A stretch of 33,627 nucleotides of DNA, from positions 1 to 33,627 of the IMG/VR virus record IMGVR_UViG_3300012178_000009; one strand, 5' to 3'. The notes beneath the pieces are model-generated. The model did no database searches and was not told where the DNA came from. It saw only the letters and a program-made list of their open reading frames with translations. Made by a program: the position numbers and the translations under genes. This document shows, piece after piece, positions 3,043 to 29,938 of this stretch; position 1 is the stretch's first letter, and each line of letters begins with the position of its first letter. The stretch comes from a virus.

Positions 3043-3498
3043 TTATCTCGCTGGTATTTCTCGGTTAAAAAAATAGTTTGAATTTCGGGTTCCTTCGCGG
3101 TCCATGCGCTCCACTTTGCCTCCGCTGATGATGCTACGTTCTTCAAGCGTTGCCAGTCTGCGCTCCGTCACGAGAGCGTCATCATGACGCTTATTTATCG
3201 CCTCCATAATTAGCCGTGCATTTTCATCTGCCTGCCTCTGGGTCGGAATCACGTAGAGGCCAATTCCTGTGCTGACCATCACGATGACTGCCACCAGCCA
3301 GCCCACGTTAAAAGGTTTGGGAACCGCAAGCCCCCGCACCTCATGGAGCAACTCGGTCATAGATGTCTGCAACCCCGTCACGCTGGTTTTCAGTCCGACA
3401 ATGTCGCCTGACATTTGACCAACCTCTTTCTGAGTTTCGGACTGAGCTTTCCACAACTCTTGTAAGTCGTGGGGTTTTGGTGTTGCGGGGTCGGTCAT
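3043..3498 (-). CDS. Coiled-coil protein with one membrane segment, holin-like candidate
   Basis: A 151-aa protein. Residues 12-57 form a heptad-like coiled coil (QKEVGQ..VGLKTSVTGLQTSMTELLHEV), a transmembrane helix follows at about 65-85 (VGWLVAVIVMVSTGIGLYV), then a charged C-terminal helix. This resembles the architecture of XhlA/hemolysin-type phage membrane proteins and some holins, although the helix order differs. Its start overlaps the stop of the 60-aa gene upstream. With the two lipoproteins and the hydrolase it forms a plausible lysis cassette. The functional call is inference. Confidence 0.65.
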   Translation of the reverse strand: MTDPATPKPHDLQELWKAQSETQKEVGQMSGDIVGLKTSVTGLQTSMTELLHEVRGLAVPKPFNVGWLVAVIVMVSTGIGLYVIPTQRQADENARLIMEAINKRHDDALVTERRLATLEERSIISGGKVERMDREGTRNSNYFFNREIPAR

Positions 3499-3680
3499 TA
3501 CAGATCTTCCTCAACCGCCGTCATTTCACGGGTCATAGCTGGTATCTCCTTTTGCTCAGCCCAGGCCTTACGAGCGGCCAACCGAGCGTAGGGGGCTTTC
3601 GCGTACTTCCATATGAATTTCAGGACAGATAGAGCTGTCTTGGGGTCTATGGCTTGGGGTTTTACCGGGGGGTTGTTCAT
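3498..3680 (-). CDS. Small unknown phage protein (60 aa)
   Basis: A 60-residue basic-then-acidic protein starting MNNPPVKPQ, with a predicted amphipathic helix (KTALSVLKFIWKYAKAPYARLAARKAW). There is no signal, membrane segment or recognisable domain. It overlaps the downstream coiled-coil/membrane gene by one base at stop/start and lies 23 bp after the carbohydrate-binding-type gene. Coding is supported by tight packing and strand agreement; function unknown. Confidence 0.55.
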   Translation of the reverse strand: MNNPPVKPQAIDPKTALSVLKFIWKYAKAPYARLAARKAWAEQKEIPAMTREMTAVEEDL

Positions 3681-3703
3681 CAGCGTCTATCTTCGGTTAA
3701 GAA

Positions 3704-4210
3704 TTATTGAGCCAGCCAAAGAGCCGGGACTGCTGGAGGAGTCCAGCCCGGTTGCGTGGTGTGCGATTGAATACATTTGTAAGTGACGCCCTGATACTCC
3801 CGCAGGGAGGCTTCTACCGGCGGTGTCTTAAATAAATCCTCTTTAACTACAGCCTCCCATGCAATCCACGGGAGGACACCAGAGCCGACCTGTTGCACGA
3901 TGAAAAGCGCTGGTGTTTCCTCCGGCGTGAAGTGCGTCCTGACATGCGCCTGACGGCAAACCAGACGAACCTCTCCGTATTGATACACCCCGCGATCTAC
4001 CTGTTCACCCTCCACGGGGAGAGGCGGGAGGTCCGTGATTTCGATGTCTTTGATTGCGGTCAGGTACGCCTCTGGATCTGAGTCAAAAGTCAGATTTGAC
4101 TGCCCGGTGGACGTCACCTGATCCGGGTTGGTTATGCCCAGGTGACGTGTGCCATCATCTGACCAAGCTAGAAAATAGGTTGAGTTTGCGGGTTTGCTGA
4201 TCTGTTTCAT
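3704..4210 (-). CDS. Tail-associated protein with CBM5/12-like C-terminus
   Basis: A 168-aa protein. The start at 4210 (MKQISKP) is chosen because it overlaps the upstream stop in a TAATG and has a GGAGGAG Shine-Dalgarno; the frame extends ten codons further up without support. The C-terminal ~40 residues (REYQGVTYKCIQSHT..PGWTPPAVPALW) match the chitin-binding type 3 / CBM5-12 pattern: an aromatic, YKC, QxHT, the GW-P-PALW signature. Such modules are common on phage tail and baseplate proteins and bind surface glycans. It lies directly downstream of the repeat-rich fibre-like gene, so a receptor- or glycan-binding tail accessory is likely. Confidence 0.7.
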   Translation of the reverse strand: MKQISKPANSTYFLAWSDDGTRHLGITNPDQVTSTGQSNLTFDSDPEAYLTAIKDIEITDLPPLPVEGEQVDRGVYQYGEVRLVCRQAHVRTHFTPEETPALFIVQQVGSGVLPWIAWEAVVKEDLFKTPPVEASLREYQGVTYKCIQSHTTQPGWTPPAVPALWLAQ

Positions 4211-5190
4211 TATATTTCTCCTCCGTCTGTTACTGTCCAAGTATGGTCCGCAACCTGTGCGGCTTTTGCGGTTGTCCCTGCTCCGCTGGTTTTGGAATTA
4301 CCTCCATGGAATGGCACTGAGCTGTTGCTGTTGTTGGCCTCAATGTTCACCCACAGGTTGTTATAGTCCGTGGTGTTGATTGTTACGTTAAGGAACATAT
4401 AAGCCCCATCAGTCAAAGCCCCCAAGACCATCCCGGACGGGAGTGAGGTTAGTGAGGTGCCGTAGAACATATAATACCCACTAGTCAAAGCCCCCAAGAC
4501 CATCCCGGACGGGAGTGAGGTTAGTGAGGTGCCGTAGAACATCGCCCTCCCATCAGTCAAAGACCCCAAGACCATCCCGGACGGGAGTGAGGTTAGTGAG
4601 GTGCCGTAGAACATATAAGACCCATCAGTCAAAGATGCTAGAGTCATATCATCAGGCAGGGAGGCTAGGGGGTTAGTGAGGTAGAACATCGTCCACCCAT
4701 CAGTCAAAGACCCCAAGACCATCCCGGACGGGAGTGAGGTTAGTGAGGTAGACCGGAACATCGCCCTCCCAAGGATCAAATGATCCAGCGTCATATCATC
4801 AGGTAAAGACGTAAGGTTCGTGCAACCCATGAACGCATTACTCTGATCCGTCCCGCTAAGCCCCGTACCCAACTGACTGATCCCCGTCAGTTTAAGTTTG
4901 TCCCCGCCATTGTTAAAATAGATCCGACTAAACACCCCCGTAATCGTCACGGTGTACGCACCGGGACTTGGATAGGTATGCGTCCAAGCCGGGTCGTTGT
5001 AGGTTGTTATGTCATCATTTGAGCCGTCTCCCCAATCGACGTTGCAGGTATAAGTGCCGTCGCTTTTAGTCGGGATGGTGATTTGGCTGTCGGTGGAAGT
5101 GCCTACGTTGTCGGTTTGCCACGACGTTTTGAAGGCGTCCAAATCCGCACCACCACCAAATTTAAATGGATCTATGAGCATGATCGACAT
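4210..5190 (-). CDS. Fibre-like protein with PKD-type segment and BspA/DUF285-like repeats
   Basis: A 326-aa protein. Residues ~20-90 carry the VDWGDGS motif (51-57) and a THTYPSPGAYTVTITG strand, the PKD-like cap typical of BspA/DUF285 surface proteins. Residues ~115-270 are leucine-rich repeats of 24 residues (one of 25) with a core LTSLPSGMVLG-LTDG--MFYGTS. The repeats are nearly identical at the DNA level. BspA-like repeats are known on bacterial surface proteins that bind host matrices; on a phage they would suit receptor binding. The start overlaps the upstream stop (TAATG). The gene lies between virion genes, so a tail fibre or head decoration is inferred. Confidence 0.78.
   Translation of the reverse strand: MSIMLIDPFKFGGGADLDAFKTSWQTDNVGTSTDSQITIPTKSDGTYTCNVDWGDGSNDDITTYNDPAWTHTYPSPGAYTVTITGVFSRIYFNNGGDKLKLTGISQLGTGLSGTDQSNAFMGCTNLTSLPDDMTLDHLILGRAMFRSTSLTSLPSGMVLGSLTDGWTMFYLTNPLASLPDDMTLASLTDGSYMFYGTSLTSLPSGMVLGSLTDGRAMFYGTSLTSLPSGMVLGALTSGYYMFYGTSLTSLPSGMVLGALTDGAYMFLNVTINTTDYNNLWVNIEANNSNSSVPFHGGNSKTSGAGTTAKAAQVADHTWTVTDGGEI
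4390..4790 (-). repeat. Tandem 72-bp repeats within the fibre-like gene
   Basis: The word agtcaaag recurs at 4411, 4483, 4555, 4627 and 4702, spacing 72, 72, 72 and 75 bp, and a diverged sixth unit follows. Units share long identical stretches (for example the segment coding for SLPSGMVLG). The 75-bp unit has one extra codon. The frame is kept, so unit number can change by recombination without breaking the protein. Confidence 0.9.
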
Positions 5191-5771
5191 TACCTCGTTC
5201 CGATTAAAGTTATTTTCAGACCAGCCCCGGCAGTGCCGGACCCGATCTGATCAATGTCCACCGTAATTTCCGCATCATCCGCAATCGCAGAATCCGAAAT
5301 TACCGGAGGGGTTGCAGATCCAACAGAGGTTTTATCTCCATCATCAATGCTGATTTCTGTAGAAAGTACAGAAGTCCCTCCCTCATTCACATCCACCACC
5401 AGATCCGCTCCCACCGGAGCCGTGGTCACGCTGGCCCGTACTCCCGTCAGGGTGAACGCATGGGGGGAGCGCAAAGTCACCTTCGCCGTCCCGGTGGTAA
5501 GATCCGTGGTTTCATCGCTGACGGCCAGTTGGATAAACACATCCTTCGTCCACGCAATGGTCGCCCAGTTAGCCTCAACGCCGAAGTCGTCGGCATTTAG
5601 GGCCAGCATAACGGCGTTATCTCGATCCGTCACCTGCACGTAGTCTCCTGCAACCAGAGGTGTGGTATCGTCGCTCCGTGTTCCTGCGAGCCTCTGGGCA
5701 TTGGTTACATCGTAGAGGGTGAAGGGAACCTCGCTGCCTAAAGATGGGGGTAAGGGGGGTAAGAATAACAT
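5190..5771 (-). CDS. Phage structural protein, beta-rich (193 aa)
   Basis: The N-terminus MLFLPPLPPSLG is short and hydrophobic. The remainder is Thr/Asp/Val-rich with strong beta propensity. The C-terminal half (LTGVRASVTTAPVGADLVVDVNEGG, SVLSTEISIDDGDK, AEITVDIDQIGSG-AGAGLKITLIG in segments) matches a domain I recall recurring in phage virion proteins of unknown name. It ends in TAATG overlapping the fibre-like gene and starts 9 bp after a small structural gene. A tail or head-decoration role is likely; the exact function is unknown. Confidence 0.68.
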   Translation of the reverse strand: MLFLPPLPPSLGSEVPFTLYDVTNAQRLAGTRSDDTTPLVAGDYVQVTDRDNAVMLALNADDFGVEANWATIAWTKDVFIQLAVSDETTDLTTGTAKVTLRSPHAFTLTGVRASVTTAPVGADLVVDVNEGGTSVLSTEISIDDGDKTSVGSATPPVISDSAIADDAEITVDIDQIGSGTAGAGLKITLIGTR

Positions 5772-5780
5772 AATAGTACC

Positions 5781-6116
5781 TCAGTATTTAAGAGCTTCGC
5801 TATAAATGGAGGCGGAGGTTGCGGATTCCCGGATAAACTTCGCCTCTTTGGCCTGGATGGGGCTTAGGTACAGAAAGCTACCTGCAGGGATCAGATCCCC
5901 GTGGTCACTGCCTGGGGCCGGGGTGCTGCCGTCCGTGGTCATCCGTACATCTGCGTTCTGCACATTTATCTTTACAGTGTCGGTCCCTTCTGGATAGGCG
6001 GCGGCGGGAAGCTGTACCCCGCCCGCAGTGGCATCCACCGCGAGCACCTGCCCGCTGGAGGTAATCGTTCTGGCCCCGTATAGGGTATTCTTTTGAAGTG
6101 TGGCATTAGATCCCAT
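5781..6116 (-). CDS. Small phage virion protein (111 aa)
   Basis: A 111-aa beta-rich protein containing NVQNADVRMTTDGSTPAPG, then GDLIPAGSFLYLS and AKEAKFIRES. This pattern (a ..VR.TTDGSTPT.. strand, a L.AG..LYL strand, a ..A.FI... strand) occurs in many short head-decoration or tail proteins of tailed phages, from memory. It sits between the adaptor-like gene and the beta-rich 193-aa gene with gaps of 15 and 9 bp. A virion role is inferred from context and pattern. Confidence 0.65.
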   Translation of the reverse strand: MGSNATLQKNTLYGARTITSSGQVLAVDATAGGVQLPAAAYPEGTDTVKINVQNADVRMTTDGSTPAPGSDHGDLIPAGSFLYLSPIQAKEAKFIRESATSASIYSEALKY

Positions 6117-25718: not shown

Positions 25719-25804
25719 AGTGTGCGTATGATTAAACAGGTTTTAAGTTGTTTATAGGCAACGACATAAAAAAAGAAACCGGACAATTTTACCACACCAC
25801 TAGA

Positions 25805-25828
25805 TTTGATCCTGTATATCTAATCAAA
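25805..25828. promoter_or_regulatory. Operator-like inverted repeat between divergent modules
   Basis: TTTGAT (25805-25810) and ATCAAA (25823-25828) are inverted copies separated by 12 bp that include TATATC, a possible -10 for the plus-strand module. It is a reasonable binding site for the divergently encoded HTH protein. Evidence is sequence symmetry and position only. Confidence 0.4.
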
Positions 25829-25839
25829 GCCACACGGCC

Positions 25840-25862
25840 AACCGCCCCGGACGGATTCCGGG
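25840..25862 (+). promoter_or_regulatory. Leader hairpin E1 with ACGGATT loop
   Basis: AACCGC flank, then CCCGG-ACGGATT-CCGGG (25846-25862). A perfect 5-bp stem with a 7-nt loop identical to E2 and E3, ending 23 nt before the ATG at 25886, with an AAGG-type Shine-Dalgarno between. Part of a repeated leader element. Confidence 0.75.
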
Positions 25863-25885
25863 AAACCACCTGAAAAGGAAAAAAG

Positions 25886-26071
25886 ATGCATAATATCTAC
25901 AAAGAAAACGGACACGAAATTCGCACGGCATACCTTGCCGCGCTGGCCACTGATTACGGGCAAAGCCTGCAACTGATTCATACTATTTCCGATACGCTGG
26001 GAAGCTCTGAAGACTTCGACGCGCTGCCCGCATTCCTGCAGGATCTGGAAGCGGTGGAGGTGTTCGCATGA
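25886..26071 (+). CDS. Small acidic protein, first gene of the plus-strand module (61 aa)
   Basis: MHNIYKENGHEIRTAYLAALATDYGQSLQLIHTISDTLG, mostly helical, with an acidic C-terminus. AAAAGGAAAAAAG precedes the ATG. The stop overlaps the start of the next gene (ATGA). No domain recognised. Base composition here is more AT-rich than in the late genes, consistent with an early or acquired module. Confidence 0.68.
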   Translation: MHNIYKENGHEIRTAYLAALATDYGQSLQLIHTISDTLGSSEDFDALPAFLQDLEAVEVFA

Positions 26072-26217
26072 GTGTTTGCAAATACAAAAATAGCAGAAAC
26101 TTTGCCGTATATGATGACCAAGGAAACCTTGTTTGCGTATGCGTTTATAAAAAAGGCGCGGAAGAAGTCGCGCGCCGTCTAAACGCTACATTAAACTTCA
26201 TGGAGGCTGCAGCATGA
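26068..26217 (+). CDS. Small Cys-rich protein (49 aa)
   Basis: MSVCKYKNSRNFAVYDDQGNLVCVCVYKKGAEEVARRLNATLNFMEAAA in two parts: a beta-hairpin-like N-terminus with three Cys (VCK, LVCVCVYKK) and a C-terminal helix. The ATG overlaps the previous stop and the TGA overlaps the J-domain gene start. It is a type of short protein common in mobile-element accessory modules (FAVYD--G-LVCV-VYKKGA--V--RL). Function unknown. Confidence 0.65.
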   Translation: MSVCKYKNSRNFAVYDDQGNLVCVCVYKKGAEEVARRLNATLNFMEAAA

Positions 26218-26729
26218 TCAATCCCTTCTTACATTTAACGCAGCCGGAAGAAGTCAAAAAAGAATTCCGCCGTCAATGCTTCATTCACCACCCGGACCAG
26301 GGCGGAACGGATGCAGCTTTCCGGGATCTCAACCGGATGTATCAGGAACGCTTGCGCGTTCTGGACGGATCCAAGCACAAGACCGAAGGCGGAAAAGAAT
26401 TCACGTACACTTACAACGAAGCCCGGGAAACCGAAGTTGCCGCAAAACTCGCGGAAGCAATCGCCGCGCTGCCTGCTACGGTTAATATTCTGTTAATCGG
26501 GATTTATATATGGATTGACGGCGAAACCAAACCCGAACGGGAAACCCTGAAAAAGTTGGGGTTCTACTGGTCAAAAAACCGCGCCCGCTGGTACTGGAAA
26601 CCGGCGGACTATAAAAGCCGCCGGTCTAAATCCGGCCTGGCCATGATCGCAGCCCGCTACGGGTACCAGAATTTTACCGGAGAAAAGGAGGAAAGCACCG
26701 CACCACGCCGGGCACGGATAAACGCCTAA
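26214..26729 (+). CDS. J-domain protein with C-terminal WYW-type domain (171 aa)
   Basis: The N-terminal J-domain has the HPD motif (His26-Pro27-Asp28 in FIHHPDQGG) with the helices around it (EEVKKEFRRQC; AAFRDLNRMYQERL). The C-terminal part (about 96-133: IGIYIWIDGETKPERETLKKLGFYWSKNRARWYWKP) is a small domain I recall linked to J-domains on conjugative elements and phages. It stimulates a DnaK-type chaperone; why a phage module keeps it is unclear (replication-complex remodelling is one option). It overlaps the preceding gene by four bases. Confidence 0.82.
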   Translation: MINPFLHLTQPEEVKKEFRRQCFIHHPDQGGTDAAFRDLNRMYQERLRVLDGSKHKTEGGKEFTYTYNEARETEVAAKLAEAIAALPATVNILLIGIYIWIDGETKPERETLKKLGFYWSKNRARWYWKPADYKSRRSKSGLAMIAARYGYQNFTGEKEESTAPRRARINA

Positions 26730-26742
26730 ACCCGCTGACGAT

Positions 26743-26783
26743 GGACCGGGGCACCGGTCCGAAATCCCGCAGCAATGCGGGAT
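26743..26783 (+). promoter_or_regulatory. Two tandem perfect hairpins after the J-domain gene
   Basis: GGACCGG-GGCA-CCGGTCC (26743-26760) and ATCCCGC-AGCAAT-GCGGGAT (26764-26783), each a perfect 7-bp stem. No T-run follows, so they are not standard terminators. They may protect the upstream message or attenuate transcription before leader hairpin E2. Confidence 0.55.
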
Positions 26784-26800
26784 CCGGGATGCAAACAAAC

Positions 26801-26823
26801 CGCCGCCTGGTACGGATTACCAG
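26801..26823 (+). promoter_or_regulatory. Leader hairpin E2 with ACGGATT loop
   Basis: CTGGT-ACGGATT-ACCAG (26807-26823), preceded by an AACCGCCGC flank and followed by AAACC. The stem sequence differs from E1 and E3 with matching changes on both sides while the loop is identical. It ends 20 nt before the ATG at 26844. Confidence 0.78.
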
Positions 26824-26843
26824 AAACCGAAAAAGAGAAAAAA

Positions 26844-27299
26844 ATGAAGATCATAAAATTAAAAAGCGCAATTCTTAGCCAACTGGCAAAAGCCGCCGCC
26901 GAAAATGACGGGGCAATCAAGATATGTAATGAACCCTACATGCCTTTATCATGTGAACTCATTGGAGAAACCGAAGTTTCCGGCCAAAGCCTCCAATGCT
27001 TTTCCATGTGCCACTACGGAGAGCAAAACGGGGATTTAATGCGGGATCCTGATGTTTGTTTCTTCATCCAAAAAGACGGAGAAAATGAATATTTCATTCC
27101 TTACGAATTCCAATACGACTACGCCGGAGAATACACCTGTGCCTTTAAAGATCAAAAATGGCAAACCCGCGAACAAAGAGACATTGCAGAATTCTGTCAA
27201 ATTTGGATTAAAAACCTGAAAAAACAGGGATACATTGACCAATTAAACCCTGATTACGTGCAAGCCGTTAAAGATTTTGAAAAGGAGCCAACAGCATGA
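26844..27299 (+). CDS. DUF6908-like protein (151 aa)
   Basis: The start at 26844 (MKIIKLKSA) follows an A-rich stretch and leader hairpin E2; upstream codons are noncoding leader. The sequence IKICNEPYMPLSCELIGET and CHYGEQNGDLMRDPDVCFFI, then YFIPYEFQYDYAGEYTCAF, matches the DUF6908 pattern (N-P-M-L, HYGEQNGDLMRDP). The family is common on conjugative elements and phages; biochemical function unknown. The stop overlaps the next start (ATGA). Confidence 0.7.
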   Translation: MKIIKLKSAILSQLAKAAAENDGAIKICNEPYMPLSCELIGETEVSGQSLQCFSMCHYGEQNGDLMRDPDVCFFIQKDGENEYFIPYEFQYDYAGEYTCAFKDQKWQTREQRDIAEFCQIWIKNLKKQGYIDQLNPDYVQAVKDFEKEPTA

Positions 27300-27454
27300 G
27301 CCCCGAACTATTAAAAACCATCCTCGAAAAACAGGCAGCGCGGGAAAAAACCGAAACCTATTACACCAGCAATCAGATTTTACAGCTTTCCTTCCTTCTG
27401 GCCTGTTGTATTTTCGGCCTTGCAATCCTCATCCATGCCCTGTTAAACTACTAA
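27296..27454 (+). CDS. Small membrane protein (52 aa)
   Basis: MSPELLKTILEKQAAREKTETYYTSNQ then a transmembrane helix at about 29-50 (LQLSFLLACCIFGLAILIHALL). AAAGGAG lies 8 nt before the ATG, and the start overlaps the previous stop. A small inner-membrane protein of unknown role; overlap and Shine-Dalgarno make it credible despite its length. Confidence 0.62.
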   Translation: MSPELLKTILEKQAAREKTETYYTSNQILQLSFLLACCIFGLAILIHALLNY

Positions 27455-27456
27455 AA

Positions 27457-27477
27457 CCGCCCGGCACGGATTGCCGG
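27457..27477 (+). promoter_or_regulatory. Leader hairpin E3 with ACGGATT loop
   Basis: CCGGC-ACGGATT-GCCGG (27461-27477), preceded by AACCGC and followed by AACAAAACAAAAGGAG. Ends 22 nt before the ATG at 27500. Confidence 0.78.
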
Positions 27478-27499
27478 AACAAAACAAAAGGAGAAAATT

Positions 27500-27685
27500 A
27501 TGAAAGCCAACGGCACACATAAATTCAACATCGCCGGAAAATCTGGTGAGATCACCATAAAAAATAAAGAAGCTACTGTCTTGATTCAAGGCGGGCACCA
27601 AAATGGCGGAACTTGCGAAGATATTGAAGACATTCTTCGTTTAATCGCTACCGGAATCAAAACCGCACTTGTACTTGATAAATAA
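27500..27685 (+). CDS. Small unknown protein (61 aa)
   Basis: MKANGTHKFNIAGKSGEITIKNKEATVLIQGGHQNGGTCEDIEDILRL, a beta-hairpin followed by helices (DIEDILRLIATGIKTALVL). AAAGGAGAAAATT precedes the ATG, and leader hairpin E3 is 22 nt upstream. No domain named. Confidence 0.65.
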   Translation: MKANGTHKFNIAGKSGEITIKNKEATVLIQGGHQNGGTCEDIEDILRLIATGIKTALVLDK

Positions 27686-27692
27686 ACCCCGC

Positions 27693-27712
27693 GCCCGGCG
27701 GACCATCCGGGC
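27693..27712 (+). promoter_or_regulatory. Leader hairpin E4, variant loop
   Basis: GCCCGG-CGGACCAT-CCGGGC, a perfect 6-bp stem with a different 8-nt loop, flanked by AAACCCCGC. It ends 10 nt before the ATG at 27723. A diverged member or a coincidental hairpin. Confidence 0.5.
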
Positions 27713-27722
27713 AAAATTTACC

Positions 27723-28070
27723 ATGTCAGAAACATCTATCATATTAAACTGCACCCACGAACAGAAAGGCGCAGCCAAGCGCGCAGCCTATCCCGGCAAA
27801 CTCGCAGAGTGGGCGCTTGAGTGGATCAATACCGGCGTACAACTCTCTGAGAACGCCCCCGTTGATCTCCCGCCCTACCTCATTGCCGACAATCCGGCCA
27901 CCGGTGACTTGTACGCGCTGCACACCCAGCGGCCGCGCTGCTTAATCCGTTTAATCGAAACCGACCGGGGATATATCGCCCAGCCGGTGGAATCCTACGA
28001 ACCCATGACTCAAAGCGCCCAGGATCTTGCGCGGATCCTCCGGGGTGCGGAAGACGCAGCTTCAGAATAA
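27723..28070 (+). CDS. Small unknown protein (115 aa)
   Basis: The start at 27723 (MSETSIILNCTHEQKG) follows the E4 hairpin; the 18 upstream codons are leader. The protein has ILNCTHEQKGAAKRAAYPGKLAEWALEWINTGV and a beta-rich middle (YLIADNPATGDLYALHTQRPRCLIRLIE), then YIAQPVESYEPMTQSAQDLARILR. No family recognised. Last gene of the plus-strand module, convergent with the small gene below the integrase. Confidence 0.6.
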   Translation: MSETSIILNCTHEQKGAAKRAAYPGKLAEWALEWINTGVQLSENAPVDLPPYLIADNPATGDLYALHTQRPRCLIRLIETDRGYIAQPVESYEPMTQSAQDLARILRGAEDAASE

Positions 28071-29483: not shown

Positions 29484-29527
29484 CTCGTAATGAATAGTCG
29501 TCGGTTCGATTCCGTCCTTTGGCTCCA
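29484..29527 (+). other. attP core: 3' half of a tRNA-Thr(CGT)-like gene
   Basis: CTCGTAA fits an anticodon loop with anticodon CGT (Thr). It is followed by a 3' anticodon stem (TGAAT), a short variable loop, GTCGG-TTCGATT-CCGTC as T-arm (one T-T mismatch in the stem), CTTTGGC as 3' acceptor strand, then T-CCA. There is no D-arm or 5' half. A tRNA 3' end next to an integrase is the classic attP of tyrosine recombinases. Confidence 0.75.
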
Positions 29528-29553
29528 CTTTTACAGGTTTTTGAAATGTTCGG

Positions 29554-29571
29554 GCCAATTTCGAGACAATC
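29554..29571 (+). repeat. Putative integrase arm-type site, right copy
   Basis: An 18-bp perfect direct copy of 29362-29379, 26 bp beyond the attP core end. With the left copy it brackets the core asymmetrically (104 and 26 bp), as in lambda-type att sites. Confidence 0.7.
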
Positions 29572-29635
29572 TTTGTACGCTATTTGAAGAGTATTTTCTT
29601 CCCTTCCTTTTGTCTCTCTCTGACAACTTGTGTCA

Positions 29636-29938
29636 TCAGTGCGCCGGTGCAGGCGAGAAGGAAAGCGGTTCCGACATACGGCTCATGCGGAACATTTTCC
29701 GGTTATAAGTTTCGCTTCCCCGCTTGTAACCACGCACCTCTACAAAATACGCATCCAGCAGTTTCATGCGTTCCAACCTTGGGAGGCTTCTGGCAATGCT
29801 ATCATGATATAAACCTTTCCGACTAAGTTCTTCGGGCGTGCTTATTTTATCGTTAGTTATTGGGGCAGAAAATCCATTATTCAGTGAGTCCGGTTCGTCT
29901 CCTGTAATCCCATTCCCTGATCTCTGGGGGCGCGTCAC
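29636..29938 (-). CDS. Small winged-helix-like protein overlapping the polyvalent gene (~100 aa)
   Basis: The C-terminal part (KISTPEELSRKGLYHDSIARSLPRLERMKLLDAYFVEVRGYKRGSETYNRKMFRMSRM in segments) has helix-helix-helix-wing spacing (STPEEL, DSIARSLPRLERMKLL, then a beta wing) and is protein-like. The start is uncertain: GTG at 29938 inside the 3' end of the upstream gene, or CTG at 29884 near an AGGAGA. Ends 65 bp from the right arm-type site. It may be a small regulator of the lysogeny region; no family named. Confidence 0.5.
   Translation of the reverse strand: MTRPQRSGNGITGDEPDSLNNGFSAPITNDKISTPEELSRKGLYHDSIARSLPRLERMKLLDAYFVEVRGYKRGSETYNRKMFRMSRMSEPLSFSPAPAH

Follow-up and report, generated by a model that had tools for sequence, protein, structure and literature searches.

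A putative 22-nt pseudoknot in phage gene leaders and its possible part in translation initiation

The stretch of viral DNA analysed here, referred to throughout as the window, is a 33.6-kb virus record (33,627 nt) in which seven plus-strand genes form an operon between minus-strand phage genes and an integrase gene. Three of the seven overlap their predecessor in an ATGA arrangement: a 49-aa gene and a J-domain-like 171-aa gene (together 26068..26729, with starts at 26068 and 26214), and a 52-aa gene (27296..27454, start 27296). The other four have no upstream overlap, i.e., a 61-aa gene (25886..26071) for which Pfam and PHROG searches gave no match, a DUF6908 gene of 151 aa (26844..27299; Pfam PF21849, E=2.5e-31), a second 61-aa gene (27500..27685), and a 115-aa gene (27723..28070). 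Copies of one small structured element precede all four non-overlapping genes (4/4; starts 25886, 26844, 27500, and 27723) and none of the overlapping ones (0/3).

A first-pass annotation had reported three hairpins in these leaders, each enclosing ACGGATT in a perfect 5-bp stem that ends 20–23 nt before an ATG, and all three are present as described. They lie on the plus strand at 25841..25862 (copy 1, stem CCCGG/CCGGG), 26802..26823 (copy 2, GCCGC CTGGT ACGGATT ACCAG, stem CTGGT/ACCAG), and 27456..27477 (copy 3, ACCGC CCGGC ACGGATT GCCGG, stem CCGGC/GCCGG); the ATGs of the first 61-aa gene, the DUF6908 gene, and the second 61-aa gene follow at 23, 20, and 22 nt, respectively. A covariance model scores the three copies at 35.3, 25.5, and 30.9 bits. 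The flanks are shared less fully than had been claimed: CCGC is common to all three 5′ sides, but AACCGC is not (copy 2 reads GCCGC), and the 3′ flank AAAC is shared only in part (copy 3 has AACA). The window shows no enrichment of ACGGATT by itself (9 occurrences vs 5.1 expected); the recurring unit is the hairpin plus its flank. Copy 3 begins 1 nt after the stop codon of the upstream gene.

A variant had also been noted before the fourth gene. This copy 4 (27688..27712, plus strand; CCG C GCCCGG CGG ACCAT CCGGGC) has the architecture of the others but a longer third loop, and the counterpart in the 98% relative L020, CGGATTAT, agrees (CCG-C-GCCCGG-CGG-ATTAT-CCGGGC). It is weakly matched by the covariance model (16.6 bits, E about 1), ends 10 nt before the ATG, and has no clear Shine-Dalgarno (SD) sequence. 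Judging by its letters, copy 4 is probably a longer-third-loop form of the same fold and a member of the set. Two more hairpins lie upstream of copy 2 (26740–26800), and they differ between the window and its relative yet are still paired (GGACCGG/CCGGTCC in the window vs GGTCCG/CGGACC in the relative, with GGCA enclosed in both).

Loop bases 1 and 7 also pair, making the stem 6 bp rather than 5 bp, and the CCG upstream of the stem can pair with the CGG of the loop. From the aligned copies, we consider it very probable that the element is a minimal H-type pseudoknot. The consensus of aligned copies is A-[CCG]-C-[NNNNNA]-[CGG]-AU-[UNNNNN], 22 nt in length, with a conserved first A, a helix S1 of 3 bp, a loop L1 of 1 nt (C), a helix S2 of 6 bp, an L2 of 0 nt, and an L3 of 2 nt (AU). 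In copy 1, for example, the A is followed by S1 (25842–25844 with 25852–25854), L1 (C, 25845), S2 (25846–25851 with 25857–25862), and L3 (AT, 25855–25856). Pseudoknot stereochemistry allows 1 nt to span a 6-bp helix and 2 nt to span a 3-bp helix. The loop had been called invariant, and in copies 1–3 of the window it is constant; more generally, it is largely so because its CGG base-pairs with the upstream CCG, and elsewhere both sides covary. In other phages S1 is CGG:CCG or CCC:GGG, the closing pair of loop positions 1 and 7 may be A-U, C-G, or G-C, and variant loops occur in the same phages (CCGGATG, ACGGCCT, and AGGGAGT with an upstream CCC).

The element extends well beyond the window. Pattern scans of viral contigs added 25 phage contigs, most of them unrelated, with GC contents of 31–67%. 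A scan for the exact string CCGCN5ACGGATTN5AAAC gave perfect stems only in the window phage and its relative; 25 contigs outside this phage that matched the string were judged to be chance matches, since all their stems are imperfect. A relaxed pattern, by contrast, recovered the same hairpin ahead of starts in unrelated phages. The complete scan of viral contigs with ACCGCNNNNSACGGATTSN{8,20}AGG (ACCGC...ACGGATT...AGG) returned 117 stretches, comprising 96 distinct readable matches. At least four contiguous Watson-Crick pairs are present in 20 of the 96, vs 0.8% expected (binomial 9e-23), and pairing is bimodal: 37, 27, 9, and 3 matches have 0, 1, 2, and 3 pairs, respectively, and 10 matches each have 4 and 5. 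Every one of the 20 well-paired matches directly precedes a start codon; a strict start filter was passed by 19/20 paired vs 4/76 other matches (Fisher 3e-15). Some contigs are related (L192/L201/L217, and three copies from L020), meaning that independent events are fewer than rows, but the above-chance pairing tied to starts does not hinge on them. Paired matches outside leaders are few, fall mostly within long reading frames, and look like chance, and the accepted copies are all in sense orientation just ahead of a start codon. Two outcomes had been named in the first-pass annotation as refuting it, a lack of further copies near starts and randomly placed copies with mismatched stems, and neither was observed. 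The J-domain, DUF6908, capsid, LPD38, primase, and integrase proteins, used as queries, retrieved the near-identical L020 (40.5 kb) and a capsid-bearing fragment of 13 kb (L039); all other matches were distant homologues. The distant DUF6908 homologues examined lack the element.

Scans that relaxed the letters further support the second helix. In the last scan, two of the three loop-flank pairs were left free, as was the loop 1–7 position, and the counts obtained are lower bounds; among the matches listed, full pairing was linked to preceding a start (at least 6/10 vs 8/98, Fisher 2.5e-4), the L310 and L322 leaders carry CGG:CCG, and the loop closes with C-G in Burkholderia phage Mica and L348 and with G-C in L331 and L377. 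In a structure-only scan of 3.4 Mb, the combination L1=C with L3=AT was the commonest by a wide margin (38 in all, 29 in leaders; the next combinations numbered 9 and 5), with many of the loci having been fetched by patterns that fix these bases. In an alignment of 27 distinct sequences (A1), 97.5% of pseudoknot cells are paired (S1 100%, S2 96%), a level of conservation that partly reflects row selection, as most rows came from searches in which parts of S1 or S2 were fixed. Double-sided changes occur in both interleaved helices and number 46 vs 8 in shuffles; the covariation score of the pseudoknot is 0.63 vs 0.14 for shuffled and 0.03–0.07 for slid alignments. Compensatory double-sided change is seen in 8/9 pairs, including loop 1–7 and two of the three S1 pairs. 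The informative rows are L310, L322, L249b, and L114b for S1; L202b, L264b, Mica, L331/L377, L348, L310, and L322 for the inner pair; and nearly all rows for S2. Together, the tie between pairing and starts, the covariation, and the recurrence in unrelated phages strongly support the earlier suggestion of a functional RNA element in gene leaders.

Comparisons between homologous genes point the same way. Three contigs encode homologous proteins (31–42% identity), each with the element in its leader and with compensated stems (GCCAG/CTGGT in L192, GCCGG/CCGGT in L208, GTCAG/CTGAC in L249), and the Gp49-like homologues of L229 and L140 (52%) have stems GCCGG/CCGGC and GCCAG/CTGGA. Orthologues therefore conserve the element while its stem letters change in compensation. 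Conversely, Rhizobium phage RHph_N65 has a homologous gene (77% identity) in the same GAAGAGGAAGAAC context with no hairpin, and the element is therefore not essential there. Among the carriers is Burkholderia phage Mica (MT701586), which has the element at 34846–34867, ahead of gp052, and again at 39967–39988, ahead of gp062. The products encoded downstream include scaffolding proteins (L202, L219, L310), an integrase-like protein (L238), Gp49-like proteins (L229, L140), DUF6908, and many proteins of no assigned function. The canonical pattern was not found in T7, lambda, P22, epsilon15, N4, T4, BcepIL02, D3, phiKMV, PPpW-3, AF, Mu, P2, P1, or RHph_N65.

Several features of the carriers and of the window's relatives may be recorded here. 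On the minus strand of L202 (2265–2327), tandem pseudoknots with loops CCGGATG and ACGGATT lie ahead of a head scaffolding protein gene. Genes for a GOLLD RNA, a tmRNA, and several tRNAs are also present (3050–5781) on the element-carrying 58.7-kb phage contig L118. Where the window has a single leader (25800–25890), L020 (5480–5930) has an extra 77-aa gene with its own near-identical leader and pseudoknot, as if, from the sequences, a leader-gene cassette had been gained or lost by recombination between repeats. BLASTN places short segments of the window's 11.8–14.0 kb region at several places in the relative G001 (11.5–15.2 kb), which suggests duplication or reshuffling. Adjoining the integrase gene of the window is a tRNA 3′ end (29488–29535; GTCGTCGGTTCGATTCCGTCCTTTGGCTCCA, Thr-like) that is likely an attachment site; this stretch is absent from the relative (window 29489–29816 is unmatched), and the tRNA-like core had no host match in the viral or genome contigs searched.

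The distance between element and gene is nearly constant. In 20 of 21 copies, a set gathered without the AGG filter, the gap from the end of S2 to the start codon measures 14–26 nt (mean 20, sd 3); in the remaining copy it is 35 nt. A ribosome placed on a start codon occupies some 20 nt of the mRNA ahead of it, so with a spacing of ~20 nt the knot would stand at the ribosome's upstream edge. Copies inside operons often lie directly against the stop codon of the preceding gene, with 0–1 nt between the two in L252, L044, L229, Mica gp062, and window copy 3; in L219 they overlap by one base. In two GC-rich carriers (L264:2760–2850 and L322:1330–1430), the element closely follows an apparent tRNA 3′ end, and tRNA processing could make the mRNA 5′ end there.

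Two interleaved helices and a sense location ahead of starts mark the element as a candidate cis-acting H-type pseudoknot of mRNA leaders. As for its role, we propose, with a probability of about 0.5, that it is a cis-acting translation-initiation module that works through the host machinery at the upstream edge of the 30S subunit. Lying in a 5′ leader or an intercistronic gap and ending ~20 nt ahead of the start codon, the knot would border a 30S subunit bound to that codon on its upstream side, the mRNA-exit/platform edge. It may help independent initiation by docking the 30S subunit, for instance through ribosomal protein S1, may set the SD spacer apart from upstream RNA, and would act through host machinery with no phage-specific regulator. 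We favor this reading because the start distance is near constant, the element is used only where genes are not coupled by overlap, the downstream genes are generic, and there is no common phage protein. The docking step is suggested by analogy, combined with the spacing: H-type pseudoknots are ligands of ribosomal protein S1, and 30S standby binding depends on the leader pseudoknot in tisB (PMC7708055). Counting against an initiation role are copy 4, with its 10-nt distance and no clear SD, the predicted openness of the SD region (folded without the knot), which is not above the local average (0.53 vs 0.50), and the absence of the canonical form from 14 well-studied or reference phages.

Other roles would fit part of the evidence. 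The knot might instead stabilize or process mRNA, by blocking RNase E-type or exonuclease decay at a 5′ end or by marking a cleavage site, with transcript life set gene by gene. Stable 5′ structures protect mRNAs, and the likely transcript start given by a good sigma-70-like promoter in L118 and in L114 is no more than about 12 nt from the element; nevertheless, such a role does not need a constant distance to the start codon, many copies lie inside operons right behind a stop codon, and we regard it as rather unlikely. The first-pass annotation had suggested a binding site for a phage protein that controls translation. Leader pseudoknots do serve phages as operators, e.g., in T4, where gp32 uses one as a nucleation site (PMC535899), and the several copies within one window operon would suit repression or activation by a phage-encoded RNA-binding protein. 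However, no protein family occurs in more than 5 of the 13 carrier genomes compared (BLASTP 1e-6; some genomes are incomplete), and phages usually have one copy, ahead of unrelated genes, making an operator less likely than had been supposed and, in our estimate, quite improbable. Generic genes and free stem letters would be expected of a passive insulator, i.e., a very stable mini-fold without a partner whose only effect is to prevent base-pairing between the ribosome-binding site and upstream RNA; such folds may have recurrent origins, as UUCG hairpins do. The predicted stability of S2 alone is −4 to −11 kcal/mol. A plain hairpin would suffice for this purpose, however, SD openness is not raised, and the A, C, and AU left unpaired show conservation, albeit in rows mostly selected for them; we hold this explanation to be likewise improbable.

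Two further explanations concern what the letters of the element resemble. Canonical copies share the loop ACGGAU with the ANGGAX hexaloop sites of CsrA/RsmE, and RsmE binds this hexaloop with high affinity in the hcnA-RsmE complex (PMC4005645). GGA inside base pairs binds worst (PMC4005645), and in the present element two of the three bases pair in S1; moreover, the sites do not cover the SD. An unpaired GGA is not present in every loop, as L310 and L322 have CCGAT for CGGAT (loops CCCGATG and GCCGATC) and so lose GGA while keeping the pairing. A CsrA/RsmA site is, therefore, very hard to credit. As for a DNA-level element, such as a recombination site or a protein operator that merely resembles an RNA hairpin, the gain and loss of leaders (the extra L020 gene with its near-identical leader, and RHph_N65 without the element) would be in keeping with it. 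Yet stem letters vary with pairing kept, 6 rows have a G-U outer pair, the covariation between loop and flank follows RNA pairing, and accepted copies are in sense ahead of starts, leaving this idea with next to no credence.

If the translation-initiation reading is true, i.e., if the knot recruits or positions ribosomes, it would represent a compact, host-general translation signal for phage gene expression and for leader design. The broader proposal that the 22-nt pseudoknot and its 20-nt spacer form a portable ribosome-recruiting module, and a new, widely spread phage RNA class active in many bacterial hosts, is tentative and falls short of probable. The natural pair swaps CCG:CGG, CGG:CCG, and CCC:GGG make the role directly testable.

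Very small and conserved in nature, the pseudoknot keeps a near-fixed position ahead of starts in unrelated phages, and Rfam does not contain it: Rfam 15 covariance models gave only chance matches in the window region, to E=10, and no match above the gathering threshold at the element in seven carriers. We found no description of such an element in the open-access literature, subscription papers being mostly outside the search. The SAM-II and preQ1 riboswitches are likewise compact H-type pseudoknots before genes; unlike them, the present element has no Rfam match, no common pathway downstream, and no SD inside the fold. The gene 32 leader pseudoknot of T4 and RB69 is an autogenous translational operator of one gene, bound by its own product. 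It consists of a knot of about 28 nt followed by more than 40 nt, lies farther upstream than the present element, and shares no sequence with it, and T4 lacks the canonical pattern. An autogenous operator of that type does not describe the present copies, whose downstream genes encode scaffold, integrase, Gp49-like, DUF6908, and other proteins, not a single-strand DNA-binding protein. There is also a likeness to the tisB standby pseudoknot, a leader pseudoknot proposed to bring in the 30S subunit via ribosomal protein S1 (PMC7708055). The tisB knot has helices of 9 (S1) and 5 (S2) bp, loops of 0/2/3 nt, and a 3′ partner, and lies about 100 nt upstream of a sequestered ribosome-binding site, whereas the present element has a 5′ partner, helices of 3 and 6 bp, and a position about 20 nt from the start codon. 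Within the known broad kind of leader pseudoknots, it is a new family.
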